Positions 3,530-40,588 of a stretch of DNA of 57,481 bases are shown here, in pieces. Source of the DNA: Oscillospiraceae bacterium. Its GTDB lineage: Bacteria > Bacillota > Clostridia > Oscillospirales > Oscillospiraceae. The notes beneath the pieces were generated by a model. The model worked only from the letters and a program-made list of their open reading frames with translations, was not told the DNA's origin and searched no databases. Numbering within the stretch: position 1 is the first letter of the stretch; each line of letters opens with the position of its first letter. The translations under genes were made by a program, and so were the position numbers. Location of the stretch: positions 1-57,481 of the forward strand of contig JAFSAP010000025.1 of assembly GCA_017440925.1 (NCBI GenBank). Direction: 5' to 3'.

Positions 3530-3539
3530 TGGTGATCAT

Positions 3540-12522: not shown

Positions 12523-12582
12523 AGGATTCCTCCATATGGAAAATTTGACTCTATTGTAGCAGAAAAACGGAATAAGGGCAAG

Positions 12583-12623
12583 AAAAAGCAGCTGTAAAGG
12601 AAAATCCTTTGCAGCTGCTTTGT
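12583..12623 (-). terminator. Terminator of the acidic-protein gene
   Basis: AGCAGCTG and its complement, extended by AAAGGA/TCCTTT, form a near-perfect stem. Read on the minus strand it ends in TTTTTCTTG. It lies just after the gene at 12630 and before sbcD. Confidence 0.75.
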
Positions 12624-12629
12624 GTTTAT

Positions 12630-13273: not shown

Positions 13274-13341
13274 ACAAACACGAAAACTTCACTACAAACA
13301 CGCGGAATCTGGTTGCTATGACGAAAAGAATATGCTATTCT
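13274..13341 (+). promoter_or_regulatory. Promoter and direct-repeat operator of the LRR/MoxR operon
   Basis: TTGCTA (13313-13318) and TATTCT (13336-13341) are 17 bases apart, 31 bases before the XRE start. Just upstream, ACAAACACG occurs twice, at 13274-13282 and 13294-13302, exactly 20 bases apart (two helical turns). This is a plausible binding site for the first gene's product; that link is inference. Confidence 0.6.
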
Positions 13342-13372
13342 ATAGACAAATATCCGTAAGGAGGAAACGTTT

Positions 13373-13591
13373 ATGACCATCAGCTACAAGAAACTCTGGG
13401 TGATGCTGGCCCAGAATGAGATGAGCAAGGCAGAACTGCGCCGCCGGGCGGGGCTGTCTCCCGCCACCTTTACCAAGCTGCGCCGGAACCAGTCCGTATC
13501 CATGGAGGTGCTGCTGAAGATCGCGGAAGTCATGGACTGCAACATCGGCGACATGATGGATTTTGTAAAAGTGCCTGCAGAAACGGAATAA
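13373..13591 (+). CDS. XRE/Cro-type helix-turn-helix regulator
   Basis: A 72-residue single-domain DNA-binding protein. The HTH_3 fold is clear: MSKAELRRRAGLSPATFTKL gives the helix-turn-helix, followed by VSMEVLLKIAEVMDCNIGDM, typical of the YozG/short XRE group. The ATG at 13373 follows AAGGAGGAAACG. It is the first gene after the promoter at 13313-13341 and most likely controls the LRR/MoxR operon behind it, since no terminator is seen before 13651. Confidence 0.9.
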   Translation: MTISYKKLWVMLAQNEMSKAELRRRAGLSPATFTKLRRNQSVSMEVLLKIAEVMDCNIGDMMDFVKVPAETE

Positions 13592-13650
13592 GCGGCATAT
13601 ATTGGACAGAACAGATCATATAATGTCAGAAAAAAGGATGGTGCAGTGTA

Positions 13651-13875
13651 ATGTTTTTTGAACCCTGGATGTTTGCAGCCATGGAGGATGAGGGCATTAT
13701 GGATACCCGAACCGGTCGGATCAACAAAGTTGCCAAATTCCTGGCAAGGCAAAACTTGGACTATATCGGAAATGCAGAGTTTATCCAGGCCTGCCATGCC
13801 TGCGGTATTGATCCCTATTATTTCGATCAGGAAGATATCGAGAAGATCGGACAGAAGATCCGGTCTTTGCGTTAA
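13651..13875 (+). CDS. Small protein of unknown function
   Basis: A 74-residue protein beginning MFFEPWMFAAMEDEGIMDTR, with no signal peptide and no recognised domain. The pattern RINKVAKFLARQNLDYIGNA suggests two short helices and resembles a small helical binding domain. It lies 59 bases after the XRE gene and 12 bases before the exonuclease fusion, so it is probably co-transcribed with both. Possible roles such as adaptor or antitoxin are unsupported guesses. Confidence 0.6.
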   Translation: MFFEPWMFAAMEDEGIMDTRTGRINKVAKFLARQNLDYIGNAEFIQACHACGIDPYYFDQEDIEKIGQKIRSLR

Positions 13876-13887
13876 AGGAGTATCACT

Positions 13888-15219
13888 ATGAAGGATATGG
13901 AACTGATTACCCGGCAGGAACCCGGCCTGGTGGAATTTTATAATTTTGAAGATCTGAAAACCATGCTGGAAGCAGAGCTGGTGCGCTATCAGAATATTGC
14001 CTACAGCGAGGATGATCTGAAGGAAGCAAAGGCAGATCAGAAAAAGCTGAAGGATCTGAGAAAAGCCATTGACGATAAACGCAAGGAGATCAAAAAGATT
14101 TATATGCAGCCCTATGAGGTTGTGGAGGCCCAGACCAAAGAACTGATTGCCCTCATCGACGCGCCGCTAAAGGCAATCGGAACTTATCTGGACAGTGCTC
14201 AGGAGGCGGAAAAAGAGCAGAAGCGGCAGGAAATCCGTGCTTTCTATGATCGGGAGGCAACTCCTTTGGGAGAACTGGCAGACGCTCTCTTTGCAAGTCC
14301 TTCCTTCTGGAACCCTAAGTGGGAGCTGAAGTCCGCCAAGGCAAAGATGTGGCAGGATGAAATCCGGGAAAAAATCGCACAGGCAGCGGCAGATCTGAGC
14401 AGTCTTCAGTCAGCCGGAGGCGAGCATACACCGGCATTGATTGCCAAATATCTGGAATGCCAGGATATGGAGCAGGTGCATCAGTTCCGCGAGTCTCTGA
14501 CAGCAGCGAAGGAAATCTCCACTACTGTGGAAGCTGCGGATGAGCAAGACAATGTGGTTGGCTGGCAGATTATGAAGATCCATGGCACCCGGCGCCAGAT
14601 GCAAATGCTCCGGGATCAACTGGAGATCATGGGCATGGAGTTTGAAATTCTGGAAGACGGTATGCCTGGGAACCTGGAGGAACTGACGGTTCCTGACTTT
14701 GACAGCTTTGTTGCGTTTGATATCGAAACCAGCGGTACATTCGGTGCAGCCAAGGGGGATGCCCCTTCGGAGATTACAGAGATCGGTGCGGTAAAGGTGG
14801 AAAACGGAAAAATCGTCTCCCGGTTTACATCCCTTTGTAACCCTGGACGGAAAATTACGCCTATTGCCACCAGGGTCACAGGTATTACGGATGCCATGGT
14901 GCTGTCGGAGCCTCCAGTGGAGACCGTGATCCGGCTCTTTGCGGAATTTGTGGGGGACAGCATTCTGGTGGGACACAATATCAAGAGTTCCGACCTGCAC
15001 TATATCACCACTGCCGCTAACCGGGCAGGCGTGGCATTTGAAAACAAATTCTTCGATACATACCTGTATGCCAAAACCCTGAAAGAACAGCAGGGATGGG
15101 AAAATGTAAAACTGGAATATCTGTCCAAGGTATTCGGCATCACCCAGAACGAAGCCCACCGTGCATGGTGCGACGCAGAAGCCAATGTGGGCGTGTACTT
15201 TAAGCTGAAAGAACTGTAA
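13888..15219 (+). CDS. DUF1351 and DEDDh 3'-5' exonuclease fusion
   Basis: A 443-residue protein. Residues ~1-170 match DUF1351, a coiled-coil-rich domain usually encoded by phages beside recombination genes (YSEDDLKEAKADQKKLKDLR, then RKEIKKIYMQPYEV). Residues ~270-440 are a DnaQ/epsilon-type exonuclease: FDIETSG (motif I), a central SILVGHNIKSSDLHY (motif II) and AHRAWCDAEANVGVY (motif III, His-x4-Asp). All catalytic acidic residues are present, so it is likely an active DNA or RNA 3'-5' exonuclease. The link of a phage-type recombination domain to an exonuclease at the head of an ATPase/VWA/LRR operon suggests nucleic-acid processing or destruction. Confidence 0.8.
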   Translation: MKDMELITRQEPGLVEFYNFEDLKTMLEAELVRYQNIAYSEDDLKEAKADQKKLKDLRKAIDDKRKEIKKIYMQPYEVVEAQTKELIALIDAPLKAIGTYLDSAQEAEKEQKRQEIRAFYDREATPLGELADALFASPSFWNPKWELKSAKAKMWQDEIREKIAQAAADLSSLQSAGGEHTPALIAKYLECQDMEQVHQFRESLTAAKEISTTVEAADEQDNVVGWQIMKIHGTRRQMQMLRDQLEIMGMEFEILEDGMPGNLEELTVPDFDSFVAFDIETSGTFGAAKGDAPSEITEIGAVKVENGKIVSRFTSLCNPGRKITPIATRVTGITDAMVLSEPPVETVIRLFAEFVGDSILVGHNIKSSDLHYITTAANRAGVAFENKFFDTYLYAKTLKEQQGWENVKLEYLSKVFGITQNEAHRAWCDAEANVGVYFKLKEL

Positions 15220-15243
15220 GAAGAAATTTTGGAGGAAGTTAAT

Positions 15244-16452
15244 ATGAGTAATATGAACGATTTTGTGATTAAAAATGGTATGCTGACCAAGTATGTTGGC
15301 CCTGGCGGAGATGTAATCGTTCCGGACAATGTAACAGAAATTGGAATGAAGGCGTTTGTCAGTGGCGGCTATCAGTTTTCATCCGCAATTACGACCATTC
15401 AGCTGTCTCGCAGTATTAATGCAATTCGACTGGGTGCATTCAGTGGCTGTACCAATCTCAGAAGCATCACCATGCATCCGGGTGTAACCATCGACCGGGA
15501 TTACTCAGGGCGAAAAGTGGGTTCGGAAACCTTTGGGGATTGCAGATCCATGAAAGAAATCGTGTTTGCGGAGGATTGTGACAACACCATTCTGGATCAA
15601 TTCTGGGAGTACTTTGTTGTCAAAATTCCAAACAACACAGAAAGCGCGATGAAGGCAGCAACACTGTACTCTCTGCTGAAGTATTGTCCGGACTATGTTC
15701 TGAATGATCCTGAGAAGGCGAAAAAGATTAAATCAGGCAAAAAGCTTCTGGCTGATATGGCTATCGAACGGGATGACGCAGAAACCATGGGAAAGGCATT
15801 TTCCCTGCACAAGAACATCAAGCTGGACGAACTGAATGGGTACCTTGAGAAAGCAGAAAATGCCGTGACCGTCAAAGCGTATTTGTTGGATTACAAGGAA
15901 AAGCAGTATTCTCCCAAGGCTCAGACAAAGCATGAAGCAGTTCAGACCGAAAAGCAGATGGGCATCAGAAAGATGACTGTGGCAGACTGGAAGAAGGTAT
16001 ATCGTTTCAAGAAAGAGGCTGGCGGAATCCGGATCGATGATTATATTGGAGCGGATCTGGAGGTGGTTGTGCCGGAACAGATTGGCAAGGATAGGGTGAT
16101 AGCCATTGGATCTCAGGCATTCAGTCTGTATGATGAGGATTATCAGCTGCGGGAGAATCGGAGAGATTTGATTTCTGTAGTTTTACCGGAGGGCATTACA
16201 TCTATCGGTTACCGTGCATTTGAGGAATGTCCCAATCTGACCTCCGTCACACTGCCCGGTAGCTTAACCAAGATTGACTACTGGGCCTTCAACGAGTGTA
16301 AAAAGTTGACAGCGATTCATATTCCGGCAGGAACAGTGAAAATTGAGCGCAATTCCTTTAAAAATTGTGAGAATCTGACCATCCATGCTCCTGCAAGCAG
16401 CTACGCTGAAACCTACGCAAAAGAAAACAATATTCCCTTCATTGCGGAATGA
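15244..16452 (+). CDS. Intracellular BspA-type LRR_5 protein
   Basis: A 402-residue protein without a signal peptide. The ATG at 15244 follows TTTGGAGGAAGTTAAT. The N-terminal ~90 residues hold LRR_5 repeats (KYVGPGGDVIVPDNVTEIGM, GAFSGCTNLRSITM); residues ~125-235 are an alpha-helical module ending KAYLLDYKEKQYS; the C-terminal ~150 residues hold further LRR_5 repeats and the shared cap HAPASSYAETYAKENNIPF. LRR_5 repeats normally mediate protein binding and are usually on secreted proteins; lack of export signals here places it in the cytoplasm. First LRR gene of the operon, 24 bases after the exonuclease stop. Confidence 0.85.
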   Translation: MSNMNDFVIKNGMLTKYVGPGGDVIVPDNVTEIGMKAFVSGGYQFSSAITTIQLSRSINAIRLGAFSGCTNLRSITMHPGVTIDRDYSGRKVGSETFGDCRSMKEIVFAEDCDNTILDQFWEYFVVKIPNNTESAMKAATLYSLLKYCPDYVLNDPEKAKKIKSGKKLLADMAIERDDAETMGKAFSLHKNIKLDELNGYLEKAENAVTVKAYLLDYKEKQYSPKAQTKHEAVQTEKQMGIRKMTVADWKKVYRFKKEAGGIRIDDYIGADLEVVVPEQIGKDRVIAIGSQAFSLYDEDYQLRENRRDLISVVLPEGITSIGYRAFEECPNLTSVTLPGSLTKIDYWAFNECKKLTAIHIPAGTVKIERNSFKNCENLTIHAPASSYAETYAKENNIPFIAE

Positions 16453-16467
16453 CAGGAGAAAAATAAA

Positions 16468-18378
16468 ATGAGTAATGCAAGTGATTTTGTTATCGAGAAC
16501 AGTGCCTTGTTAAGGGGAGTTTTGTCAAAGTACATTGGCGACGGAGGAGACGTAGTGATTCCCGATAACGTTAGAAGTATCGGTGGGGGTGCATTCTCCG
16601 GCTGCAAGAGTCTAACCAGCATCACAATTCCTGACAGCGTTCATTCCATCGGCTGGAAGGCATTCTCCGGTTGCAAGAACTTGAGCACCATTACTATCCC
16701 AAGCAGTGTGGAATCCATCAGTGGTTTGGCATTTGAAGATTGTGTGGGACTGACATCCATCACAATCCCTCATAGCGTTAGATACATTGATGAGACTGCA
16801 TTCCGAAACTGTAAAGCACTTGCAGATCGGCATGGATTCCTTATCCTGCACGGTATGTTATTTGGATATTTCGGAAACGCATCCGATGTTACTATCCCGG
16901 ACAGCGTTGACACCATTGGTGCTGAAGCGTTCAAAAATTGCAAGAACCTGGCAAGTATCAAAATTCCAGACAGCGTTACATCCATCAGTGATGAGGCTCT
17001 CAGCAACGGCTCCAATCTGCCCAAAATGATATTATCCGTTACGGCGGGTTCCTTTGTCACAAAACTATTCCGCTATTCTGATGCGCTGCGCATTGATATT
17101 CCGGATATTTCTGCGTTGCCTGCCAAATTCCGGATCTGTGCCGCTCTATGTTTTGCAGAAGATGGCGGTAATGCTACAGACCCTCGCTACGAAAGCCATA
17201 GCAAGTATCTAAAAGCCAATTCCGGAAAAATCGCAGAGATTGCGGTTCAGAATCTTCCGCTGCTCACACTGCTTTGCCGGGAAGGCTGGATCAAAGCCAA
17301 GGATATCGAGGCATATACCGATGCTGTTCAGAAAACCGGTGATGCAGAGAAAATCGCCATGATCCTGGACTACCAGACCAAAAAACTCACCGCAAAGCAA
17401 AAAGAGAAGGTCGTCAGGAAGAAGGAGAAGCAGGAAGATACTGTCTTTGAACGTGCAGTTGTCCGAATGGATCAAGAAGATATCTCTGGACTGAATTTTG
17501 CACTGGCAGGGAAACTGGTTACCTTTAAAGATCAAAAAGAATTAAAGAAATTTATTGAGGACAGAGGAGGAAAACTGCTGTCTGCTATGTCTGCAAATGT
17601 GGATTTTCTCATTATGAACAAGGCTGCAGGCAACAGTGAAAAGAAAAAACAGGCGGAAGAACTGAGAATCGAGATCATAACAGAGCAGCAGTTCAATGAG
17701 AAAGTCGGCAGAAACTTCTGGATCTATCCTGATGGTACACTGTTTAAATATATCGGGGCTGGTGGGGATGTGACGATTCCTGACAACGTGACCACTATTG
17801 GGGAAGCGGCGTTCGAGAACTGTAAGAACCTGATCGCTGTGACGATCCCTGATAGTGTGAAGACTATCGGGAAATTGGCATTTCACGACTGCAAAAAGTT
17901 GAAAGCGGTGACCATAGGAAAAAACACCACTATCGGATATGGAGCATTTACCGGCTGTAAAGGACTGACTGATAAGCAGGGATTTGTTATTGTTCGGGGT
18001 GTTCTGTATAACTACTATGGAAAAGCATCCAGTATCACTATCCCCGAATGTGTTACGATCATTGAAGATTCAGCATTTGCCGATTGTGAGAGCCTGACGG
18101 TTGTGACAATCGGGGGTAATATTACAACCATTGGCATCAGAGCGTTCGCAGGTTGCAAGAATCTTGCAACTGTGAATATTGAACATGGTGTGACGACTAT
18201 TGACTATCGGGCATTTTCTGTCTGTAAAAGCCTGACTGCCGTGAACATTGACAGTAGTGTCAATACCATTAGTGGTTACGCATTTCAGGGAAGCAAGCAT
18301 GTGACCATCCATGCCCCTGCAGGCAGCTATGCCGAAACCTACGCAAAAGAAAACAATATTCCCTTCATTGCGGAATGA
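16468..18378 (+). CDS. Intracellular LRR_5 - BRCT - LRR_5 protein
   Basis: A 636-residue protein with no signal peptide. Residues ~20-195 are LRR_5 repeats (IPDSVHSIGWKAFSGCKNL type). Residues ~210-330 are the helical module shared with its neighbours (KIAMILDYQTKKLTAKQKEK). Residues ~337-412 are a BRCT domain like that of NAD-dependent DNA ligase (ISGLNFALAGKLVTF, DRGGKLLSAMSANVDFLIMN, EIITEQQFNEK), followed by LRR_5 repeats to the end with the same C-terminal cap as the other paralogues. BRCT domains bind phosphopeptides or DNA ends, so a DNA-damage or signalling role is suggested. It begins 15 bases after the previous stop. Confidence 0.85.
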   Translation: MSNASDFVIENSALLRGVLSKYIGDGGDVVIPDNVRSIGGGAFSGCKSLTSITIPDSVHSIGWKAFSGCKNLSTITIPSSVESISGLAFEDCVGLTSITIPHSVRYIDETAFRNCKALADRHGFLILHGMLFGYFGNASDVTIPDSVDTIGAEAFKNCKNLASIKIPDSVTSISDEALSNGSNLPKMILSVTAGSFVTKLFRYSDALRIDIPDISALPAKFRICAALCFAEDGGNATDPRYESHSKYLKANSGKIAEIAVQNLPLLTLLCREGWIKAKDIEAYTDAVQKTGDAEKIAMILDYQTKKLTAKQKEKVVRKKEKQEDTVFERAVVRMDQEDISGLNFALAGKLVTFKDQKELKKFIEDRGGKLLSAMSANVDFLIMNKAAGNSEKKKQAEELRIEIITEQQFNEKVGRNFWIYPDGTLFKYIGAGGDVTIPDNVTTIGEAAFENCKNLIAVTIPDSVKTIGKLAFHDCKKLKAVTIGKNTTIGYGAFTGCKGLTDKQGFVIVRGVLYNYYGKASSITIPECVTIIEDSAFADCESLTVVTIGGNITTIGIRAFAGCKNLATVNIEHGVTTIDYRAFSVCKSLTAVNIDSSVNTISGYAFQGSKHVTIHAPAGSYAETYAKENNIPFIAE

Positions 18379-18400
18379 GTAATTTTAAGAAGGTGCTTCC

Positions 18401-19750
18401 ATGTCTGAAAAAGCAGAAAAACGGAATAAGCTGGCCAAAGAAGTGCTGATCCTGTCCAGAAATACCCTGCTGGTGAATCTGCGGTTTCTGGACGCGGCGC
18501 TGAGTCAGTTTGAATTCTTTCCTATTGAAGAATCTACCCTGCTGACGGACGGAAAGCACATTCTGTACAATCCCAGACACATTCTGGAAAATTATAAGAC
18601 TGCAAAGGAAATTCCAGTCCGGGATTATTTGCATATGGTGATGCACTGCGTGTTCCGGCATATGTATATGGATCCCAGTCTGAACCGGCCCTACTGGGAT
18701 CTGGCATGTGATATCGCCGTGGAAAATATGATCACAGAACTGAATCTGAAGGCAGTGACCACGCCACGGGAACGGCAGCAGGCACAGTACATAGCGGCCA
18801 TTAAAAAAGAGCTGAAGCACGTTACTGCTGAAAAGATCTATTCTTATCTGCGGCAGGCCGTACCGGACCCGAAGAAGATTTCCGAGATTCGCGGCCTATT
18901 CTATGCGGACAATCACGAGATCTGGTATATGACTGTGGCGGAAATCGAGATTCGTTTTGGCCTGGCGGCATCCGGAACCGGAAGCGGCGACGGAGAGGAC
19001 GGAAATGAATCCCGCAGCGCCATGGCAACTGTCTGGCAAACGATCTCCGAACGGATGCAGGTGGACTTGGAGACCTTCGGTAAGCTTCGGGGACTCCTGC
19101 CCGGAAGCCTGACTCAGAATCTTGCAGCAGTGAACCGGGAAAAATATGACTATACCGCGTTTCTCAAGAAGTTTGCCGTTATGGGCGAGGCAATGAAGAT
19201 CAATGACGATGAATTCGACTACATCTTCTATATCTACGGTCTGCAGCTTTACGAAAAAATGCCCCTCATTGAGCCTCTGGAATATAAGGAAATCAAAGCT
19301 ATCAAAGAATTCGTCATCGCCATTGATACCTCTGGTTCCACTTCCGGTGAACTGGTGCAGAAATTCGTCCAGAAGACATACAATATTCTGAAATCCACGG
19401 AAAGCTTCTTTACAAAAATTAATCTGCACATCATCCAGTGCGATGCGGTCATCCAGGAGGACAAAAAGATCACCTGTCAGGAGGATTTTGACGAATACCT
19501 GAAGACTATGAAGATCCATGGACTTGGTGGCACTGATTTTCGCCCGGTGTTCCAATATGTGGAGCAGCTGCGGCAGAACAGGGAGTTTACCAATCTAAAA
19601 GGTTTGATCTACTTCACCGACGGCTACGGCACATTCCCGGCAAAGAAGCCCGACTACGATACAGCCTTCGTCTTTATCGACGATGAATACAACAACCCCG
19701 ATGTGCCCCCTTGGGCAATCAAACTGGTTTTGCAGAAAGATGAAATATAG
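18401..19750 (+). CDS. DUF2201 / VWA-like partner of the MoxR ATPase
   Basis: A 449-residue protein. The N-terminal half is the DUF2201 putative metallopeptidase-like domain, with RDYLHMVMHCVFRHMYM around residues 68-84 in the place of the usual HExxH-like helix; the Glu is missing, so peptidase activity is doubtful. The C-terminal ~160 residues are a von Willebrand A domain with MIDAS pieces FVIAIDTSGSTSGEL, LGGTDFRPV and YFTDGYG. VWA proteins of this kind work with MoxR AAA+ ATPases as a chaperone-like pair; the ATPase lies 6.5 kb downstream in the same operon. It sits 22 bases after an LRR-BRCT gene and 12 before another LRR gene. Confidence 0.85.
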   Translation: MSEKAEKRNKLAKEVLILSRNTLLVNLRFLDAALSQFEFFPIEESTLLTDGKHILYNPRHILENYKTAKEIPVRDYLHMVMHCVFRHMYMDPSLNRPYWDLACDIAVENMITELNLKAVTTPRERQQAQYIAAIKKELKHVTAEKIYSYLRQAVPDPKKISEIRGLFYADNHEIWYMTVAEIEIRFGLAASGTGSGDGEDGNESRSAMATVWQTISERMQVDLETFGKLRGLLPGSLTQNLAAVNREKYDYTAFLKKFAVMGEAMKINDDEFDYIFYIYGLQLYEKMPLIEPLEYKEIKAIKEFVIAIDTSGSTSGELVQKFVQKTYNILKSTESFFTKINLHIIQCDAVIQEDKKITCQEDFDEYLKTMKIHGLGGTDFRPVFQYVEQLRQNREFTNLKGLIYFTDGYGTFPAKKPDYDTAFVFIDDEYNNPDVPPWAIKLVLQKDEI

Positions 19751-19762
19751 GAGGAAACAGAT

Positions 19763-21112
19763 ATGAGTAATGCAAGCGATTTTATCATCGAAAACGGTGT
19801 TCTGAAAAAGTATGTGGGCCATGGTGGCGATGTGGTGATCCCGGAAGGTGTTACGGAAATTGGTGTGCAGGCATTCTATATGTGCCGTTATTTGAATACC
19901 GTTTTGATTCCGGACACTGTGAAAACAATCGGACGGGAGGCATTCCGGGATTGTATAGGTTTGAAACAAATTGCAATTCCTAATACGGTTACGCAAATCG
20001 GAGAGTGGGCTTTTATGGGATGCAAAGAGTTGAAAGAAGCCATTGTCTCTCAGAACGTTGTTTCTATGTGGGATAAGGCGGTCTTTATTGACTGTCCATT
20101 GGAGGTGTATCAAGGTCCTCTCGTTCCTCTGGAAGCATATCACTGGAAAAGTCCCAGCAAAAATGCACTGGCAGCTGGATATGCAGAAATGACGGAATCT
20201 GGTATCGTTTTTGGGGAGGAAATAGCTCAGGGATATGCCAAACAGGTGAAATCCCAGAAGAAGAAACTGTATCCGCTGATGGTTCGCCGTCCGCTGCTGT
20301 TACGTTATATGCTTAACAATAAAGTGATCCCGGTAAAAGATATGACGGAATGTCTGGATTTGGGTGCTGCACAGAATGATCCGGAAGTAACTGCTCTGCT
20401 GCTTGCCTATCAGGATGGAACCTATAGCACAAAAGACCGTATCAAGGCAGAGGAGAAAGCGGAAAAGGAATTGCTCCGGCTGCCCTCTGAAACGCAGCTG
20501 CAAAAAAAGCTTTGGAGCACGAGAAAACAGCCAGACGGAACGTTGATGATATCGGCCTACAAGGGAGATGAAGGGATTATCACGATTCCGGGCAATATTG
20601 GAAAAGGACAGATCACAGCGCTGGATAAAGAATTATTTTCTTCCACAAAACTAGGTCGTCCGGAAACACGCAAAACTTTCTTTGCTGAGAAATTGGAAAA
20701 AGTTACAATTCCTGCGGATGTTAGGGAAATTCCGGATGGCGCATTTTGGAAGTGTGATGCTTTGAAGGAAGTTAATGTTCCGGAAAGAGCTGGAAGAATC
20801 GGAAAGAACGCATTTGGGTGCTGCAGCCTGACAGAGATCCGAATTCCGGGAAGTGTCTCTTGCGTGGATGAACGGGCATTCTATAATTGCCTGAAATTGT
20901 CAAAAGCAATTCTGGAAGATGGTGTTACGTCCATTGGAAAGGAAGCCTTTATGTATAATTTCCGTTTGGATTCCATTCGAATTCCTGGCAGTGTACAGCA
21001 AATTGAGAAAGATGCATTTCATATGTGCCATAAACTGACCATCCATGCCCCTGCGGGCAGCTATGCCGAAACCTACGCAAAAGAAAATAATATTCCCTTC
21101 TTGGTGGAATAA
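19763..21112 (+). CDS. Intracellular LRR_5 protein without BRCT
   Basis: A 449-residue cytoplasmic protein. Residues ~10-130 are LRR_5 repeats (KYVGHGGDVVIPEGVTEIGV), residues ~140-240 the shared helical module (EVTALLLAYQDGTYS), and ~290-449 further LRR_5 repeats ending with the shared C-terminal cap (AGSYAETYAKENNIPF). The start at 19763 follows TAGGAGGAAACAG. It has the same layout as the first LRR gene of the operon: the position where its paralogues carry BRCT is occupied by a short linker. It is tightly packed between the VWA gene and the largest LRR gene. Confidence 0.85.
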   Translation: MSNASDFIIENGVLKKYVGHGGDVVIPEGVTEIGVQAFYMCRYLNTVLIPDTVKTIGREAFRDCIGLKQIAIPNTVTQIGEWAFMGCKELKEAIVSQNVVSMWDKAVFIDCPLEVYQGPLVPLEAYHWKSPSKNALAAGYAEMTESGIVFGEEIAQGYAKQVKSQKKKLYPLMVRRPLLLRYMLNNKVIPVKDMTECLDLGAAQNDPEVTALLLAYQDGTYSTKDRIKAEEKAEKELLRLPSETQLQKKLWSTRKQPDGTLMISAYKGDEGIITIPGNIGKGQITALDKELFSSTKLGRPETRKTFFAEKLEKVTIPADVREIPDGAFWKCDALKEVNVPERAGRIGKNAFGCCSLTEIRIPGSVSCVDERAFYNCLKLSKAILEDGVTSIGKEAFMYNFRLDSIRIPGSVQQIEKDAFHMCHKLTIHAPAGSYAETYAKENNIPFLVE

Positions 21113-21127
21113 CGGGAGGAAATACAT

Positions 21128-24100
21128 ATGAGCAATGCAAGTGATTTTATCATTGAAAACGGTGTTTTAAAAAAGTATGTGGGTCCCGGTGGCGATGTTG
21201 TAATTCCGGAAGGTGTTACTTCTGTTCATAACTTTGCCTTTGCATACTGCGACAAGATAACAAGTGTCATAATTCCTGATGGCGTCCGCAACATTGACTA
21301 TTTTGCATTCACTGAGTGTAGCAGCCTGGCCCGTGTGGTAATTCCGGCCAGTGTTACCCACATCGGACGTTCGGCATTCAAAGGCTGCAAGCGGCTGACA
21401 GATGTGGACATGGAAAACAGTACGCCTTACATTGCCGGATCTGCATTTGTAGGCTGTAAGAGTCTGGCTGATAATCAGGGATTTGTTATTGTGCGGGATG
21501 TTATATATCACTACTATGGCAGCGCGCAGTCCGTCGTTATACCGGACAGTGTTACCGCTATCAACTCGGAGGCTTTTCAGGGCTGCAGGAACCTAACTGA
21601 TGTGACCATTGGAAGTGGCGTCATCACTATTGGTAGTGAGGCATTTAAGGACTGTAAGAGCCTGGTAGATCTGACCATCGGAGACAGTGTTACCACCATC
21701 TGCGATGCAGCCTTTGAAGGTTGCAAAAGCCTGACCAATGTAACCATTCCTGACAGTGTCACCACGATTGATCTTTCTGCGTTCTCGTGCTGTGTGAGTC
21801 TGACCGATGTGACCATTGGAAATGGTGTCACCAAAACTGGCAGTTATGTATTCAACGGCTGCAAGAATCTGACTAACGTGACCATTGGGCGCAGTGTAAC
21901 CAATATCGGATACGGAGCATTTCAGAATTGCAAAAGTTTGACCAATGCCACGATCAACAGCAATGCTGCCACCACAGCATTTCGGGGGTATGAGAGCCTG
22001 AAAACTGTAACCATTGGAAACGATGTAACAGCTATTGGACATTCTGCATTCGATGGATGTAAGAACCTGAGTTCTGTGATCATTCCTGACAGTGTTACAG
22101 CCATTGGTGATTGTGCGTTCCGGGGGTGCAGAGGACTGGCCGATGAACAGGACTTTGTCATCGTACGGGGCATTCTGTATAATTACTACGGCAGCGAATC
22201 CGAGGTCGCCATTCCCGATTATGTGACTTGCATCAGCAAGGGAGCATTTAAGGGATGTAGTCATCTAACAAAGGTGACCATTCCGGTGGCACTGGGCGGA
22301 TTTGTTGCAGAAGCGTTTGATTACAGCGACAATCTGCGGATTGATATTTCGGATCTGTCTGTACTCTCTGCAAAGTTCAGGCTCTGTGCTGCGCTGTGCT
22401 TTGCGGAAGACGGTGGGCTGAATACAGATCCCCGCCATGAAAGCCATATCAAGTATATTAAAGCAAATGCAGCAAAGTTGGTGGATGCGGCAATGAGATC
22501 ACTGCCTCTTCTGGCGCTGCTGTGTCGTGAAAAGCTGATTGCGGCTAAGGATGTAGAGAAATTCGTTGCTGCGGCACAGAAAACGGAAGATCCGGAAAAG
22601 ATTGCCATGGTACTGGATTATCAAAACAATCAGCTGACAGAAAAACAAAAAGGAAACGCTGCGAAACAGAAAGAAAAACAGGAAAACACTGTGTTTGACC
22701 GGGCTGTTGCCCGTATGGACAAAGAGGGGATTTCCGGATTGAATATTGTTGTGACCGGGAAAATAAACACCTTTACAAATCGAAGTGAGCTGAAAGCGTT
22801 TATCGAAAGCAAAGGCGGAAAGCTGCAGTCTTCCCTGTCCGCAAAGACGGATTATCTCATTATGAACGATGCTGCATCCGATACCGAAAAGAAAAAGAAG
22901 GCGGAGGAACTAGGCGTTGAAATTCTGACAGAGGAGCAGTTCAACGAAAAAGCAGGCGGTCAATTTGTGATCAACGAAAACGGAACGCTCACCAAATACC
23001 GGGGAATCGGTGGGGATGTCATCATTCCCCAACATGTGACAGCGATTGGTATGGGTGCATTTGAAAGATGCAGTAGTCTCACCAGTGTGAAGATTCCGGA
23101 GGGCGTTGCCGAAATTGGTCCGCGTGCATTCGAGCAGTGTACCGGTCTCAGCAACGCGGTAATTCCAGACAGTGTTACAACCATCGGTTGGAGTGCGTTC
23201 AGTAATTGCAGCAGCCTAACGAATGTGACCATCGGCAATCGTGTTACCACTATCGGTGGTACGGCATTCTTTTGCTGTGAAAAACTCACCGATGTGGTGC
23301 TTCCGTCCGGTGTTACATCCATCGGCTCGCAGGCCTTTGAGGGGTGTCATGGCCTGACGAGTATGGTGATTCCCTCCGGTGTCACGGTCATTGAATCGCA
23401 AACTTTTGAAAACTGCCGCAGCCTGACGAGTGTGGCTATCCCCGAGGGTGTAAAGAGAATTGGTGATAGTGCATTTAGCAGATGCAGCAGTCTCACCAAT
23501 GCGAAGATCCCGGAGGGTGTGGATATCATTGGCAAAAAAGCCTTTAGTGGTTGCAGTAGTCTGGTAAATGTGATGATTCCTGACAGTGTTACCAGCATCG
23601 GAGAAGCAGCATTTTATGGCTGCAGAAAGCTTGCTGATGCAGATGGTTTTACGATTATCCGCGGTACCTTGTGTGGCTATTCTGGCGGTGGTGGAGATGT
23701 GATGATTCCGGATGGTGTAACCGAAATTGGCTGCTGGGCATTTTCTGGTTGCAAGGAACTGACTGCCATGACCATCCCCGACAGCGTTACCGCCATTGGC
23801 GACAGAGCATTCAGCAACTGTGAGAGGTTAATTGCCGTAATCATCCCTGACAGTGTAACTTCCATTGGCGACGGTGCATTCGGCTACTGTCGGAGGTTAA
23901 CCACTGTGAACATTGGAAGTGGTGTCACCTCGATTAATAGTGAAGTATTTGCCGGTTGTTCCAGCCTGTCTGAGTTGTTAATTCCAGAGAACGTAATCTC
24001 AATCAGAAAGTTTGCATTTAGCCACTGTATCGGTCTTACTGATGTGGTAATTCAGAGGAATCTAATCTGGATCGATAAGAATGCGTTTCTTAAATGTGAT

Positions 24101-24181
24101 AACCTTACCATTCATGGAAAGGTTGACAGCGATGCCCACTCTTATGCAAAAGAAAGAAAAATTCCCTTCGTGGCGAAATGA
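21128..24181 (+). CDS. Large LRR_5 - BRCT - LRR_5 protein
   Basis: At 1017 residues this is the largest paralogue, still without a signal peptide. About fifteen LRR_5 repeats fill residues ~15-400 (pattern FxGCKNLTNVTIPDSVTTI). The helical module (~410-520, KIAMVLDYQNNQLTEKQK) and a BRCT domain (~532-607: ISGLNIVVTGKINTF, KGGKLQSSLSAKTDYLIMND, EILTEEQFNEK) follow. About seventeen more LRR_5 repeats fill ~615-1017. Neighbouring repeats are highly alike, suggesting recent internal expansion. The N-terminal 25 residues are almost identical to the gene at 19763, pointing to duplication or gene conversion. The C-terminal cap is diverged (SDAHSYAKERKIPFVAK). Confidence 0.88.
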   Translation: MSNASDFIIENGVLKKYVGPGGDVVIPEGVTSVHNFAFAYCDKITSVIIPDGVRNIDYFAFTECSSLARVVIPASVTHIGRSAFKGCKRLTDVDMENSTPYIAGSAFVGCKSLADNQGFVIVRDVIYHYYGSAQSVVIPDSVTAINSEAFQGCRNLTDVTIGSGVITIGSEAFKDCKSLVDLTIGDSVTTICDAAFEGCKSLTNVTIPDSVTTIDLSAFSCCVSLTDVTIGNGVTKTGSYVFNGCKNLTNVTIGRSVTNIGYGAFQNCKSLTNATINSNAATTAFRGYESLKTVTIGNDVTAIGHSAFDGCKNLSSVIIPDSVTAIGDCAFRGCRGLADEQDFVIVRGILYNYYGSESEVAIPDYVTCISKGAFKGCSHLTKVTIPVALGGFVAEAFDYSDNLRIDISDLSVLSAKFRLCAALCFAEDGGLNTDPRHESHIKYIKANAAKLVDAAMRSLPLLALLCREKLIAAKDVEKFVAAAQKTEDPEKIAMVLDYQNNQLTEKQKGNAAKQKEKQENTVFDRAVARMDKEGISGLNIVVTGKINTFTNRSELKAFIESKGGKLQSSLSAKTDYLIMNDAASDTEKKKKAEELGVEILTEEQFNEKAGGQFVINENGTLTKYRGIGGDVIIPQHVTAIGMGAFERCSSLTSVKIPEGVAEIGPRAFEQCTGLSNAVIPDSVTTIGWSAFSNCSSLTNVTIGNRVTTIGGTAFFCCEKLTDVVLPSGVTSIGSQAFEGCHGLTSMVIPSGVTVIESQTFENCRSLTSVAIPEGVKRIGDSAFSRCSSLTNAKIPEGVDIIGKKAFSGCSSLVNVMIPDSVTSIGEAAFYGCRKLADADGFTIIRGTLCGYSGGGGDVMIPDGVTEIGCWAFSGCKELTAMTIPDSVTAIGDRAFSNCERLIAVIIPDSVTSIGDGAFGYCRRLTTVNIGSGVTSINSEVFAGCSSLSELLIPENVISIRKFAFSHCIGLTDVVIQRNLIWIDKNAFLKCDNLTIHGKVDSDAHSYAKERKIPFVAK

Positions 24182-24189
24182 GGTGCGTT

Positions 24190-24654
24190 ATGGGAGACAT
24201 TACAACTGTAGATCTAATCACCATTGCCTTTTCAGTGATTGCTGCGGTCTTCTCGCTGATTACATATCGAAACAGCATTATTCACGACCGGAAGCAGGCG
24301 ACTCTGGATGCCTACAATCAGCTGCAGGAGCAGGCGCTGGATCATTTGAATCTATACAGGCCCTCTAATATCAAAGAGATCGTGAAGGACCGACGGTCAG
24401 AAGAATATAAAAGGCTGAGTGCTTATGTGGCACGGATCGAACATTTCTGCGTGGGCGTGAATCAGAAGATCTACGATCAGAAGACTGTCTATGAACTTGC
24501 CCATGGCTATTTTGACGGCGGCCTGAAAGTCCGCATTGAACCCGTCATTGATGGTAAAAACCGATTCGGCGAGGATTACTATGCCAATATCCATACCGTC
24601 TATGCCTGGATGGAGGCTGAGACCGAGAAACGGGAAAAGTATCGGGAGGAATAA
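24190..24654 (+). CDS. Small membrane-anchored protein in the LRR operon
   Basis: A protein of about 154 residues. Two starts are possible: ATG 24178, overlapping the previous stop, or ATG 24190, preceded by GAGGTGCGTT; the second is preferred. One N-terminal transmembrane segment (LITIAFSVIAAVFSLITY, ~8-25) is followed by a cytoplasmic helical domain with a DRKQATLDAYNQLQEQ start, resembling the DUF4760-type arrangement. It is the only clear membrane protein of the operon, so it could tether the complex to the membrane or act as a membrane effector; that is inference. Four bases separate it from the next LRR gene. Confidence 0.7.
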   Translation: MGDITTVDLITIAFSVIAAVFSLITYRNSIIHDRKQATLDAYNQLQEQALDHLNLYRPSNIKEIVKDRRSEEYKRLSAYVARIEHFCVGVNQKIYDQKTVYELAHGYFDGGLKVRIEPVIDGKNRFGEDYYANIHTVYAWMEAETEKREKYREE

Positions 24655-24657
24655 GAT

Positions 24658-26202: not shown

Positions 26203-26215
26203 GTGAGATGTTATT

Positions 26216-27733
26216 ATGAACATAAAACAAGCCAAAGAGCAAATTCAAAACGCCATGAAGGCGTATTTTACCAAGGACACCTTTGGTAACTATTTAATTC
26301 CCATTGAGCGGCAGCGGCCCATCTTTCTGATGGGCCCTCCCGGCATCGGCAAGACGGCCGTTATGGAGCAGGTGGCGGCGGAACTGGGTGTGGGACTGGT
26401 CAGCTATTCCATGACCCATCATACCCGGCAGAGTGCTCTGGGTCTGCCCTTCATTGAGAAGAAGGTCTACGGCGGCGTGGAGTACAGCGTTTCTGAGTAC
26501 ACCATGTCCGAGATTATTGCTTCTGTTTATGACATGATGGAGCGGACAGGCCTGAAGGAAGGGATCCTGTTTCTGGACGAAATCAACTGTGTATCGGAAA
26601 CCCTGGCCCCCGCTATGCTGCAGTTTCTGCAGTACAAGATCTTCGGTCGGCACCGGGTTCCTAATGGCTGGATCGTGGTGACTGCGGGCAATCCTCCGGA
26701 GTACAACAACTCTGTCCGGGAATTCGACATCGTCACATGGGATCGTTTGAAGCGCATTGATGTGGAGCCGGATTACGATGTTTGGAAAGAATATGCCTAC
26801 AAAAAGGGCATTCATCCCGCAATCCTTACTTATCTGGACATTAAAAAGTCTGACTTCTACAAGATCGAGACCACTGTGGACGGTAAGTCCTTCGTCACCG
26901 CCCGTGGCTGGAGCGACCTTTCCGATATGATGAAGCTCTATGAGCAGCATGGTATCACCATTGACGAAAAACTGGTGGCCCAGTACCTGCAGAACAAGAA
27001 GATTGCAAAGGAATTCGCCATCTACTACGACCTGTTCAATAAGTACAAGTCCGACTATCAGGTGGACAAGATTCTGGCGGGCAAGGCTCCGGCTGAGATC
27101 AAAGACCGGGCAAAAGCTGCCAAATTTGATGAACGTCTGGCCCTGCTGGGTCTGCTGCTGGATGCCATCACCGGAGAACTGAAGAAGGTCAGCCTTTCTG
27201 AGCAAGCTCTGACAGAACTGATGAACAGTCTGAAAAATGTCCGTATGGAGCTGGCAAGACCGAAGGCAGAGCCAATCGCTACGGTGCAGAAGCAGATCGG
27301 CAATCTGGAAAAGAAGATCCAGACGGGGAAGCTGGCATCCACTCTGTCTGCTGACAACGAATATGCCTGCCGCAGCGCCATGGCTGCCCTGGAAGATATG
27401 GTTGCCAGGCTGAAGGAAAAAGCTCCCACCGACGGTACAGAAGCCTTCAAACTACTGAAAGCCGACTTCGACAGCCGCACCAAGACCCTCAAAAAGCAGG
27501 CAGATGCCGCCGGTAAGCAGCTTTCCAATGTATTCCTCTTCTGTGAGGAAGTCTTTGACGAGGGCCAGGAAATGCTGATTCTGGTAACCGAGCTGACCAT
27601 CAGCTACTACGGCGCTCACTTCATCAGCCGCTACGGCTGCAAGGAGTATTTTAATCATAACAAGGAACTGCTGTTCTATGAACGGCAGAAGGAGATAATC
27701 CGGGAACTGGAAAATATGGAATTGGAGGAGTAA
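26216..27733 (+). CDS. MoxR-family AAA+ ATPase
   Basis: A 505-residue protein. Walker A GPPGIGKT at residues 40-47, Walker B ILFLDEINCV near 120, sensor-1 region WIVVTAGNPPEYN and an arginine-containing DRLKRIDVEPDYDVW segment define a MoxR-type AAA+ core (residues 1-230). The C-terminal ~270 residues are helical and coiled coil. MoxR ATPases remodel protein complexes together with VWA proteins; the matching DUF2201/VWA protein is in the same operon (18401). It is similar in type to E. coli YehL, whose neighbours include a VWA protein and a DUF4132 protein, the same trio as here. Confidence 0.92.
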   Translation: MNIKQAKEQIQNAMKAYFTKDTFGNYLIPIERQRPIFLMGPPGIGKTAVMEQVAAELGVGLVSYSMTHHTRQSALGLPFIEKKVYGGVEYSVSEYTMSEIIASVYDMMERTGLKEGILFLDEINCVSETLAPAMLQFLQYKIFGRHRVPNGWIVVTAGNPPEYNNSVREFDIVTWDRLKRIDVEPDYDVWKEYAYKKGIHPAILTYLDIKKSDFYKIETTVDGKSFVTARGWSDLSDMMKLYEQHGITIDEKLVAQYLQNKKIAKEFAIYYDLFNKYKSDYQVDKILAGKAPAEIKDRAKAAKFDERLALLGLLLDAITGELKKVSLSEQALTELMNSLKNVRMELARPKAEPIATVQKQIGNLEKKIQTGKLASTLSADNEYACRSAMAALEDMVARLKEKAPTDGTEAFKLLKADFDSRTKTLKKQADAAGKQLSNVFLFCEEVFDEGQEMLILVTELTISYYGAHFISRYGCKEYFNHNKELLFYERQKEIIRELENMELEE

Positions 27734-27736
27734 TAT

Positions 27737-30157
27737 ATGGGAAAATTTGATATTCAGAATGATGAGATGCTTTCTTATGTCTCAGCATCCCGTTCTAAAA
27801 AGGGAGAAGATGTGGTTGTTCCTGACGGAATAATGACCATTGGAAAATACGGTTTTTCTGATGACCGGAATGGAAATATCAACAGTATTTTCCTTCCGGA
27901 GGGTGTTACAACAATTAAGGAGCAGGCATTTGTGGAATGTGGATTGAGAGCATTGCATGTTCCGGGAACATTAAAGTCTGTAGGAAAGAAAGCATTTGCC
28001 CGATGCAAGAATTTTAAATACATCTTTATATCTGGGGATAATATTTCTTGGCTGAATGGAAACCAGGAAATTCCACAGTCAGTTGCAGTTATTCAAAATG
28101 GGAAAAAAGATTTGAAAATACTGGCGTGCTCCATGAAGAACAAAAACTGCAATCTTCCTCCTCAGAATACAGCAGAGTATTGGGAGGATTATGACCGGGA
28201 AATCATTGAAAACGGTCCACAGTTTAAGTTCACAACCCCAGTGCGGTTACTGGGTGCGATTGGTCGCCTGATGGATCCGGTTGAGTTGGGCGAGGATAAG
28301 AAACAGGCGTATATTGAGCTGCTTGCAAAAAACATCAAGCATCTGATTCCTGTGGTGGAAGAATTGAAAATGCCTGATCTTATCCAGATCTTGTTTACTG
28401 AGGGCGTTGTAAACAACAAGAATCAGGTTGCCGTCAAGAAACTGTTGTCAGAATCCAAAATTCGGGAAATCGCCGCATTTGCAAAGATTGAAACTACATC
28501 CAAAGAACCGGCAGTAAAGAAAAAAGCAGCAAAGAAGTCGGTTCAAAGTGCGGTGGGTCTGCAGTATTCATCGGTTCTTTCTGAAAAGGAGTGGGCCCAA
28601 AAGTTAACGCTGTATTATGCAACAGATATAAAGCAGCTTCCTCCAATTTTAGACAAGGAGAAAAAGGAACTGACGGCTGCGGTCAAGGTTTGGCTGCTGA
28701 CAGCACATGAAAAAACAGTCAAGCATCCATGGAATGAAATTGAAGTGCTTGTTGACTATGAAAAGCCAGGTCTCTGTTCAGAAGCCAGGGAAGTGATTGA
28801 TCAGCTGAATCAGGAAAGCTTGCAGAAAGCTCTGCGGAAACTGGCTGAAACCAATCTGGGCATCAAAGCAAAAAATAAGAAAATGTATCTTGCTTATCCC
28901 ATCTGCCGCTATGCAGATGAGACTTTGATGGAAGAATTGACCAAGCAGGCTCCGGAATGGCGTTCTCAGGTTTCCGGCATCAATGCACCATCTCTGCTGA
29001 CCTTCCGAAAGGCGAATGCCTACAGTGAGACCCGGGCTGCAATGGTTTTTGCAGATAAGTATAAAGATACATCCTGGCGGCCGGAGTATCTGGATATGGA
29101 AACCTATGCCCAGCTCCGTGGTACCGATGCCGACACTATCCGGGATAAATATCTCTCTGATGTGGGGCTGAACGAAAAGGGCGGTAAGATTTATGATCTT
29201 GGCAACCAGACCGTAACAGTCCGGCTGCAGAAGGACCTTGGATTCATTGTGGAACTGCCCACGGGCAAAACGGCCAAGTCCCTGCCAAAGAAAGGCGCCG
29301 ATGCGGAGAAATTTGCTGTTGCTAATGCAAATTTCTCTGAACTGAAGAAGAATGTAAAGAAAATCGCAAAGAATCGTGTGAACATTCTGTTTGCGGACTT
29401 CTTCAGCGGACGCACAAGGCCGGCAGCGGATTGGAAGGAAAGTACTCTGAGCAATCCTCTTCTGCGGCAGGTGGCCAGCCTTCTGGTTTGGACACAAAAC
29501 GGAAAGACCTTCACCCTCACGGATACCGGGGTAATCACTGCGGACGAAACAACTTATACCATTGGTGATACGGAAATCGCACTGGCACACCCTATGGATA
29601 TGTCGCAGACAGATCTTGCCGCATGGCAGAAATATTTCGCGACAAATGGCATCAAGCAGCCCTTTGAGCAGATCTGGGAGCCTGTAGTAGATGCTGCGTC
29701 TGTTATGGAAGACCGCTATAAAGACTGCATGATTCCCTACCATCGCTTTGCGGGCAAGACAAAACATGGCATCCATGTGGAAGATACGGACTTCCATAAC
29801 AGCATCTATATCTATTTTGATGACTGCAAGGCCGATGTGAAACGCATTGACCAGATGCGCCATGCCATCGAGATGGATCACCGGTTTGAAGTCCGGAGTA
29901 TTTCTTTTGAGAAATTTACCCGCAAAGTCAATCACATCATCGCATATCTGGATCGGGTGACGATTGTGGAACGGATCAAAAAGGACGATGCAGGTATTGC
30001 TTCGTTCCTGCCCGGCTTCACTTTGGCTCAGATTACAGAGTTTATAAAGGTGGCCACAGAAAATAACTGTACCAATGTAACTGCACTGTTGTTGGATTAT
30101 AAGAATCAGAACTTTGCAGACGTTGATCCCATGGAAGAGTTTTCTCTGGACCTGTAA
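27737..30157 (+). CDS. LRR_5 - DUF4132 (MolR-like) protein
   Basis: An 806-residue cytoplasmic protein. Residues ~5-115 are LRR_5 repeats (VVVPDGIMTIGKYGF) like those of its operon neighbours; ~150-250 is a helical region. The C-terminal ~450 residues match DUF4132: SGINAPSLLTFRKANAYSE region, RVNILFADFFSGRTRPAADW, NPLLRQVASLLVW and ALAHPMDMSQTDLAAW followed by IKQPFEQIW. It ends with a copy of the shared helical motif (NVTALLLDYKNQNF). DUF4132 proteins accompany MoxR/VWA pairs in other bacteria (YehI/MolR in E. coli); the biochemical role is unknown. The LRR fusion ties it physically to the LRR set. Last gene of the operon. Confidence 0.85.
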   Translation: MGKFDIQNDEMLSYVSASRSKKGEDVVVPDGIMTIGKYGFSDDRNGNINSIFLPEGVTTIKEQAFVECGLRALHVPGTLKSVGKKAFARCKNFKYIFISGDNISWLNGNQEIPQSVAVIQNGKKDLKILACSMKNKNCNLPPQNTAEYWEDYDREIIENGPQFKFTTPVRLLGAIGRLMDPVELGEDKKQAYIELLAKNIKHLIPVVEELKMPDLIQILFTEGVVNNKNQVAVKKLLSESKIREIAAFAKIETTSKEPAVKKKAAKKSVQSAVGLQYSSVLSEKEWAQKLTLYYATDIKQLPPILDKEKKELTAAVKVWLLTAHEKTVKHPWNEIEVLVDYEKPGLCSEAREVIDQLNQESLQKALRKLAETNLGIKAKNKKMYLAYPICRYADETLMEELTKQAPEWRSQVSGINAPSLLTFRKANAYSETRAAMVFADKYKDTSWRPEYLDMETYAQLRGTDADTIRDKYLSDVGLNEKGGKIYDLGNQTVTVRLQKDLGFIVELPTGKTAKSLPKKGADAEKFAVANANFSELKKNVKKIAKNRVNILFADFFSGRTRPAADWKESTLSNPLLRQVASLLVWTQNGKTFTLTDTGVITADETTYTIGDTEIALAHPMDMSQTDLAAWQKYFATNGIKQPFEQIWEPVVDAASVMEDRYKDCMIPYHRFAGKTKHGIHVEDTDFHNSIYIYFDDCKADVKRIDQMRHAIEMDHRFEVRSISFEKFTRKVNHIIAYLDRVTIVERIKKDDAGIASFLPGFTLAQITEFIKVATENNCTNVTALLLDYKNQNFADVDPMEEFSLDL

Positions 30158-30160
30158 AAA

Positions 30161-30193
30161 GAGCACGGCTGTCCCTAACGGGACAGCCGTGTA
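30161..30193. terminator. Terminator at the end of the LRR/MoxR operon
   Basis: A perfect 12-bp stem (CACGGCTGTCCC with its complement, loop TAAC) lies 6 bases after the DUF4132 stop. The better T-run is on the minus strand (GCTCTTTTT), so it also ends transcripts from the spore-protein remnant. Confidence 0.8.
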
Positions 30194-36373: not shown

Positions 36374-36376
36374 ATA

Positions 36377-36452: not shown

Positions 36453-36457
36453 ATATT

Positions 36458-36532: not shown

Positions 36533-36535
36533 GTA

Positions 36536-36650: not shown

Positions 36651-36655
36651 CTATG

Positions 36656-40578: not shown

Positions 40579-40588
40579 GGAGGAAATA

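Follow-up and report, generated by a model that had tools for sequence, protein, structure and literature searches.

The 57,481-nucleotide stretch of contig JAFSAP010000025.1 from an Oscillospiraceae bacterium of the gut (assembly GCA_017440925.1; 77 contigs, 68% complete), referred to here as the window, carries a string of 12 co-directional genes on the plus strand (13373-30157) in which a MoxR-like AAA+ ATPase and a von Willebrand factor A (VWA) protein stand among proteins with leucine-rich repeats (LRRs) of the LRR_5 type. The LRR proteins share a helical domain of about 115 amino acids (aa), named HEL here, which lies between or after the LRR arrays and was matched by no Pfam model. The features of the operon, based on mechanically called open reading frames, are the following (L numbers denote stretches compared below).

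13373..13591, plus strand: XRE-type (HTH_26) regulator of 72 aa (PF13443, E 8.5e-20), with a relative in L004
13651..13875, plus strand: conserved protein of 74 aa with no Pfam match above cut-off, with relatives in L007, L008, L013 and L022
13888..15219, plus strand: predicted 3'-5' exonuclease with DUF1351 and DEDDh domains (PF07083, E 3.8e-25; PF00929, E 1e-26)
15229..16452, plus strand: LRR_5-HEL-LRR_5 protein without BRCT (PF13306, E 5.4e-30; HEL at 15616-15960, E 6.6e-21)
16468..18378, plus strand: LRR_5-HEL-BRCT-LRR_5 protein (HEL at 17104-17436, E 9.8e-33)
18401..19750, plus strand: VWA protein with DUF2201_N and DUF2201 (PF09967, E 6.6e-13; PF13203, E 6.1e-12)
19763..21112, plus strand: LRR_5-HEL-LRR_5 protein (HEL E 1.8e-25)
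21128..24181, plus strand: large LRR_5-HEL-BRCT-LRR_5 protein of 1017 aa (HEL E 5.7e-30)
24178..24654, plus strand: DUF4760 protein, for which a single membrane helix is predicted at the N-terminus (PF15956, E 4.3e-7; hydropathy 2.47), with relatives in L003, L004 and L067
24658..26202, plus strand: LRR_5-HEL-BRCT-LRR_5 protein (HEL E 2.1e-25)
26216..27733, plus strand: MoxR-like AAA+ ATPase (PF07728, E 9.4e-8; bpMoxR 26.8 bits, cut-off 27), with 320 relatives
27737..30157, plus strand: LRR_5-DUF4132 protein (PF13569, E 7.3e-30; N-terminal PF13306, E 2.1e-12)
30163..30192, no strand assigned: strong hairpin with a 13-pair stem, possibly a terminator, located between convergent genes; of its two T-runs, that of the minus strand is the better

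A first-pass annotation of the window had described eleven to twelve genes on one strand separated by 3-59 bases; the open reading frame listing and Pfam bear this out with twelve genes, and one 4-base overlap (24178/24181) is to be added. The gene set that it named (MoxR, DUF2201/VWA, DUF4132, DUF1351-DEDDh, XRE and LRR-BRCT) is also confirmed by Pfam. It counted five cytoplasmic LRR_5 proteins, three of them with BRCT; both domains were found, but the LRR proteins number six, because the DUF4132 protein has an N-terminal LRR_5 stretch as well. The promoter that it placed at 13313-13341 is weak, since a scan requiring 9 of 12 matches lists nothing on the plus strand at that position, and the window is no richer in promoter-like sites than shuffled sequence (29 against a mean of 27.7). 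The proposed terminator stands as a strong hairpin, although its T-run is better on the strand opposite to the operon. The observation as a whole is thus partly confirmed. In the DUF1351-DEDDh protein the D-x-E, D and H...D residues are present by eye. Three LRR genes are alike in DNA over their last 97 bases (16354-16450, 18280-18376 and 21014-21110), the outer copies being 84 and 85% identical to the middle one, as if these ends had been kept through duplication or conversion.

HEL is present in all five LRR_5 proteins of the window and in the LRR_5-DUF4132 protein, where two matches are weak or partial (28229-28480, E 1.9e-4; 30020-30133, E 5.9e-6). An AlphaFold2 model of the copy at 17098..17439 (plus strand) is entirely helical with a mean pLDDT of 90.9, and structure comparison gave no significant match in the PDB or among viral models. 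The characteristic motifs of both partners of the putative machine are intact. The MoxR protein has Walker A (GPPGIGKT) and Walker B (DEIN) motifs at 40 and 121, with core residues at least 95% conserved in 81 sequences, and the metal site (MIDAS) of the VWA protein is complete (DTSGS, GGTD, TDG), its residues D309-S311-S313, T378 and D407 being at least 95% conserved in 43 sequences. DUF2201 covers residues 305-444 of the 449-aa VWA chain, which has no C-terminal effector domain.

To place the operon among its relatives, a collection of genomes from 84,980 species was scanned with the MoxR protein of the window, giving 320 encoding places, of which the best 80 were kept as loci. Most of these records are labelled Clostridia or its families and many are of animal-gut origin, with single records labelled Solobacterium and Coriobacteriales; related arrangements are also found in records not labelled as metagenome-assembled genomes (L019, Negativibacillus massiliensis; L071, Lachnospiraceae bacterium YSB2008). 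Contig ends cut many of the 80 loci, and with them many of the DUF4132 counts, so that a flank-controlled count requiring at least 3.5 kb on each side was also made, which dropped 37 loci and left 43, the VWA-only stretches L165 and L166 (each with an LRR-HEL gene) being excluded from it. A second, overlapping set came from 150 genomes sampled evenly across the family of the window, from which 25 MoxR sites were fetched besides that of the window itself; the flank filter dropped 6 and left 19. A phylum sample comprised 398 genomes, that of the window included. Controls were 20 regions of 20 kb from three family genomes, ten of them from G128, a genome without LRR or HEL at its own MoxR site. 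The HEL profile was first built on the MoxR loci themselves and then iterated, and the genome-wide HEL searches, run with 52 aligned copies, are a freer test in which the query still comes from the same loci.

The association of MoxR with LRR/HEL genes is more than chance. Of the 80 loci, 61 showed a VWA gene and 69 an LRR or HEL gene; among the 43 well-flanked loci VWA is present in 38 and LRR/HEL in 41, the two loci without LRR/HEL (L042 and L066) being also without VWA. The 19 well-flanked family sites have VWA in 18 and LRR/HEL in 15. Neither LRR_5 nor HEL occurs in any of the 20 control regions, whose only domain matches were BRCT in L129 and DEDDh in L126. Genome-wide, MoxR was found in 23, VWA in 25 and HEL in 22 of the 150 family genomes, and the VWA genomes include all 23 with MoxR and 21 of the 22 with HEL (Fisher 4e-25 and 1e-20, respectively). 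On the finer scale, 38 of 40 HEL places in this sample lie on one contig with VWA or MoxR and at most 15 kb away. The phylum sample shows the same coupling at lower frequency, with MoxR in seven genomes and HEL in six, all of them among the seven, and with an LRR-HEL gene within 10 kb at five of six further MoxR sites (none at L206).

This coupling bears on whether the operon could be a surface or adhesion cluster of LRR proteins that lies beside a MoxR/VWA pair by chance. LRR_5 repeats, matched by PF13306 in six window proteins, are of the BspA type, and according to the titles of solved structures such proteins are often found at the cell surface. However, hydropathy, the one criterion used, shows no export signal in the six window LRR proteins, and 107 of 108 HEL proteins have no N-terminal hydrophobic stretch, the remaining one being just over threshold. 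Together with a HEL-VWA co-occurrence far above chance and the empty control regions, this makes a surface cluster scarcely credible.

HEL itself keeps company with a changing set of domains. Iterated profiles detected it in 118 genes, which belong to 62 of the 80 loci. It is accompanied by LRR_5 in 107 of these genes, fused to ankyrin repeats in L035 and L056 and to DUF6273 in three genes of L076, and free-standing beside VWA in L148, L159 and L160. It is also present in 16 of the 18 DUF4132 genes of the 80 loci, most of which carry LRRs too. Since HEL stays with VWA/MoxR while its partner domains are swapped, it is best read, from these domain arrangements, as a connector domain, which presumably binds VWA or MoxR. 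Likewise, because HEL has varied partners and is found, in the genomes searched, almost only near VWA/MoxR, the core of the system is very likely a HEL protein together with the DUF2201-VWA protein and MoxR. LRRs, BRCT, DUF4132, the exonuclease and the membrane protein are exchangeable attachments to this core, which also exists in a compact form of LRR-HEL, VWA and MoxR without BRCT or DEDDh (for example L048). Two further genes of the window carry domains seen on HEL proteins. A DUF6273 protein (E 1.7e-20) with a hydrophobic start by eye is encoded on the minus strand at 33620-35164, DUF6273 being the domain that replaces LRRs on the HEL proteins of L076, and a short LRR_5 protein at 40547-41173, in which the iterated search found no HEL, overlaps the end of a 452-aa gene that by eye resembles tRNA nucleotidyltransferase.

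The first-pass annotation had singled out the MoxR-VWA-DUF4132 trio and equated it with yehL/yehP/yehI of E. coli. The trio does not hold as a core, since DUF4132, BRCT, the exonuclease and XRE are occasional, the recurring elements being HEL protein, VWA and MoxR. The neighbourhood search that it had proposed found LRR/HEL-BRCT genes in 8 and DUF4132 in 16 of the 80 MoxR loci (DUF4132 in 11 of the 43 well-flanked ones), and neither in the 19 well-flanked family sites; the modules thus recur together in other genomes, and it is not the case that MoxR/VWA/DUF4132 genes never occur with LRR-BRCT genes.

The E. coli cluster yehI-yehK-yehL-yehM-yehP-yehQ does resemble the operon, since it too encodes an AAA_5 ATPase and a VWA protein in the vicinity of DUF4132, and one alternative is that the operon is a Clostridia version of that cluster with the same function. 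DUF4132 is indeed shared with YehI (profile E 1.4e-21), and an AAA+ gene and a VWA gene are found at both places. However, the ATPase and the VWA protein of E. coli belong to other families, YehP being VWA_CoxE and not DUF2201, and hmmsearch with the MoxR and VWA profiles of the window picked up neither YehL nor YehP at E 10, the hhalign probabilities being 13.5% for YehL and 0.2% for YehP. DUF5682 and SWIM, the domains of YehM and YehQ, are not among the Pfam matches of the twelve operon genes, and the five yeh proteins scanned have no LRR (Pfam) or HEL (profile) match. HEL was likewise not found in two yehI-like DUF4132 genes located away from MoxR (L168 and L169). With other ATPase and VWA families, without YehM or YehQ counterparts, and with DUF4132 in a minority of loci, identity with the yeh cluster was rejected, and a shared function is very improbable. 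A published precedent for the fusion of LRR and DUF4132 is the Leptospira protein LIC_12901, which, in the available part of its description, combines LRR, WGR and DUF4132 on one protein and differs from that of the window by its WGR domain (PMC11674859).

The genes attached to the core can be exchanged between close relatives. L009 and L011 share 91.3% DNA identity in VWA and 93.9% in MoxR, and the similarity starts and stops at those genes, all remaining alignments of at least 150 nt lying in LRR genes. Between VWA and MoxR, L009 has four LRR genes and a gene for a 156-aa protein, whereas L011 has one LRR-BRCT gene and a SIR2-like gene. The cassette between the conserved VWA and MoxR genes has therefore been replaced wholesale; the outer flanks are barely compared, because just 1.2 kb before VWA (L009) and 0.35 kb after MoxR (L011) are covered. 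A different kind of change is seen in L007 and L008, where MoxR and VWA are 99% identical and the intervening LRR gene differs by whole repeats gained or lost. Its first block has 72% protein identity (dS 0.44, against 0.02-0.03), its HEL part 93%. Other close pairs are less different: the HEL-LRR genes of L030 and L027 are 73-93% identical with MoxR at 96%. Across 22 loci with a single receptor gene, every one of the 135 pairs with MoxR identity of at least 60% shows lower conservation of the HEL gene than of VWA and MoxR (means of 33, 55 and 66%), although these pairs are not independent and differ in architecture.

Several of the accessory genes are of kinds familiar from conflict systems. 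SIR2-like genes lie in the same tight gene strings in L002, L011 and L022, two of the three above the Pfam cut-off, and SbcCD genes in the strings of L002, L007, L008, L013 and L058, and a partial SbcC lies at the border of L010. SbcCD was found in none of the 20 control regions, a zero that is expected with one locus per genome. DEDDh exonucleases occur in three of the 80 loci (L009, L014 and L022), not all contiguous, DUF4760 proteins in the three loci listed for the window protein, and a WYL regulator in the string of L014. In L046 a DruE-like helicase (1203-6071; PADLOC E 1e-172) is located directly upstream of an LRR-HEL-BRCT gene. On the minus strand of the window, SbcC and SbcD genes lie upstream of the operon (8615-12648); their close relatives adjoin VWA in L002, and divergent pairs are those of L007, L008, L013 and L058.

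BRCT, DEDDh and SbcCD all act on DNA ends in an alternative explanation in which the operon is a module for DNA-end processing or repair and MoxR/VWA remodels the complex. The BRCT domains resemble those of LigA and of DEDDh-BRCT exonucleases, DEDDh is found within the operon, and SbcCD is found upstream of it and in the gene string of five relatives. BRCT is present on LRR/HEL proteins in only 8 of the 80 loci, however, DEDDh in only three, and the short LRR-HEL, VWA and MoxR form is without either, all of which leaves such a module improbable. The nearest PADLOC candidate is PDC-S48, a DEDDh protein with a BRCT-like part, whose first part matches the window exonuclease (E 4.2e-19) and whose last part matches the LRR-BRCT proteins (best 4.4e-11); in the window, the two parts are on separate proteins. 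No named PADLOC system was matched: the scan, which covered ten of the twelve operon proteins, gave nothing beyond partial matches and a model of the DEDDh domain.

In its overall plan, the operon is closest to the MoxR-vWA ternary conflict systems, which, in the sections of the papers available, pair a MoxR AAA+ protein and a vWA protein with a third, variable and modular component and repeat small connector domains (effector-associated domains) on several proteins of one locus, as HEL is repeated here (PMC7159879, PMC8195603). The third components named there are VMAP, iSTAND, FtsH and beta-propeller, and later iSTAND2 and TERNS3, whereas here that place is taken by HEL, joined to LRR, ankyrin or DUF6273. 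The effector domain in those systems is typically located C-terminal to vWA on the same chain, where the DUF2201-type VWA of the window has none, and the same sections stress multicellular bacteria, whereas here the records are mostly labelled Clostridia. Pfam matched no VMAP, iSTAND, tandem FtsH or beta-propeller/TPR domain in the twelve genes (whether Pfam has a model for each was not established), and the bpMoxR score is just under its cut-off. Since no described third component was seen and the VWA protein is without the usual C-terminal effector, the operon was not filed under a described subtype. The text of PMC7159879 contains 'LRR' once, in its reference list, and 'leucine-rich' never, and no description of the LRR/HEL arrangement was found in searches of open-licence papers. 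The arrangement gives the appearance of a bacterial system for recognition, possibly an immune one, that has not been described before, and the best reading of the comparison is that it works like the ternary systems with a different third component. Ternary systems diversified by diversity-generating retroelements likewise combine, in the available text, a MoxR/vWA core and a putative antigen sensor that is hypervariable (PMC10907252); that sensor is a C-type lectin diversified by reverse transcriptase, whereas here LRR arrays are found (a reverse transcriptase was not specifically sought).

MoxR-VWA pairs are thought to catch a peptide via the VWA metal site, ATP then altering the conformation of the bound complex, according to the part of PMC7159879 consulted. 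With the LRR-HEL proteins as the third component, the MoxR ring and its DUF2201-VWA co-chaperone would form an ATP-driven core onto which several cytoplasmic receptors, each an LRR_5 array with HEL, would dock through HEL. Different LRR arrays would bind different protein targets, and target binding would lead MoxR/VWA to remodel the receptor complex so that an attached function is released or activated. In the window this function would probably be directed at DNA (BRCT docking, the DEDDh exonuclease and a DUF4132 arm) or at the membrane (the DUF4760 protein), and in some relatives it may be SIR2-like or SbcCD. A role in intracellular recognition is probable; that the machine is a conflict system, most likely against phages or mobile elements, has about an even chance, and defence as its outcome is given the same even odds. 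Foreign ligands for the LRRs and an effector role for the accessory genes are presumed here. The first-pass interpretation, in which LRRs recognise and MoxR/VWA remodels, is partly supported, since the shared connector domain backs this division of labour, while the exonuclease to which it also assigned a part is only an occasional addition. More tentatively, the receptor set may diversify by repeat shuffling and cassette replacement, with HEL defining a repertoire like that of nucleotide-binding LRR receptors (NLRs): exchangeable LRR receptors of one operon on one MoxR/VWA machine, which would provide each cell with a small library for antigen recognition that can evolve and whose effectors (SIR2, SbcCD, exonuclease or membrane protein) can be exchanged. 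If the recognition reading as a whole holds, a group of cytoplasmic LRR_5 proteins would gain a role as intracellular receptors, and with the compact three-gene forms the sensing and the action of MoxR-VWA conflict machines could be tested directly in laboratory strains.

A number of observations weigh against the reading as a conflict system. The LRR gene of L007 and L008 has a dN/dS of 0.44, not above 1, and SbcC diverges in the same pair too (82.8% DNA identity). In a Mogibacterium-type group of single-receptor loci (7 loci, 21 pairs), conservation is lower in HEL (51%) than in the LRR part (60%). SIR2-like genes are present in just three of the 80 loci, the L002 copy being below both Pfam cut-offs, and SbcCD in six (one partial) and in none of 27 family-set sites; DEDDh and DUF4760, like LRR/HEL-BRCT and DUF4132, are absent from all 19 well-flanked family sites. 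HEL also occurs at two places distant from VWA/MoxR: in G086:C105, where a genome that bears the system has an LRR-HEL gene on a separate contig, and in G007:C8, a weak match (E 1.5e-4). VWA/MoxR loci without detectable HEL or LRR also exist, namely four of the 19 family sites (L150 and the divergent L161, L162 and L164), and no HEL match was found in four of the 25 VWA genomes (G002, G025, G031 and G128). The L150 genome carries VWA and HEL on another contig (G042:C61), and in L164 two further genes without a Pfam match lie just upstream of VWA. Finally, the nearby defence genes whose count the first-pass annotation had called for are not enriched: 24 PADLOC families (E<=1e-15) were found among 125 neighbour proteins sampled from 283, against 51 among 125 controls sampled from 290, the counts being of families and not of distinct proteins. 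The defence reading consequently rests on architecture, exchange and patchiness.

The lack of PADLOC enrichment, and the restriction of effector-like accessory genes to a minority of loci, would also suit a dedicated chaperone, in which the task of MoxR/VWA is the assembly or control of a cellular complex, as it is for RavA-ViaA or NorQ-NorD, the LRR-HEL proteins being adaptors or substrates and no conflict being involved. Characterised MoxR-VWA pairs function in complex maturation, as stated in the part of PMC7159879 available, and the single-receptor form is retained across the Mogibacterium-type genomes. Such a housekeeping role accords poorly with the patchy distribution (7 of the 398 genomes in the phylum sample, 23 of the 150 in the family sample, and 1 of the 3 sampled genomes of the window's genus). 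At least two LRR/HEL genes are found in 24 of the 43 well-flanked loci, wholesale replacement separates two close relatives, three unrelated repeat or binding scaffolds are joined to HEL, and the largest cluster of non-core genes in the strings covers just 7 of 108 loci. A dedicated chaperone is a somewhat unlikely alternative to the recognition machine.

Other genes of the window surround the operon. At 1805-6961 lies a three-gene cassette encoding a HEPN_Swt1 protein, a protein of 990 aa that combines RNA-polymerase alpha-CTD repeats with a sigma-70 region 4, and a HIRAN protein; this cassette is also found 0.2-0.3 kb after MoxR in L010 and L014, and relatives of two of its three genes occur in control region L127. 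Downstream of the operon, the minus strand encodes an RlaP-type nucleotidyltransferase (30636-31403; E 1.5e-60). Further along, four tRNA-Lys genes stand in tandem at 36299-36731, three with CTT and one with TTT anticodons, followed at 37973-38989 by a gene for a macro-domain protein (E 4.6e-6) whose C-terminal half is HTH-like by eye.

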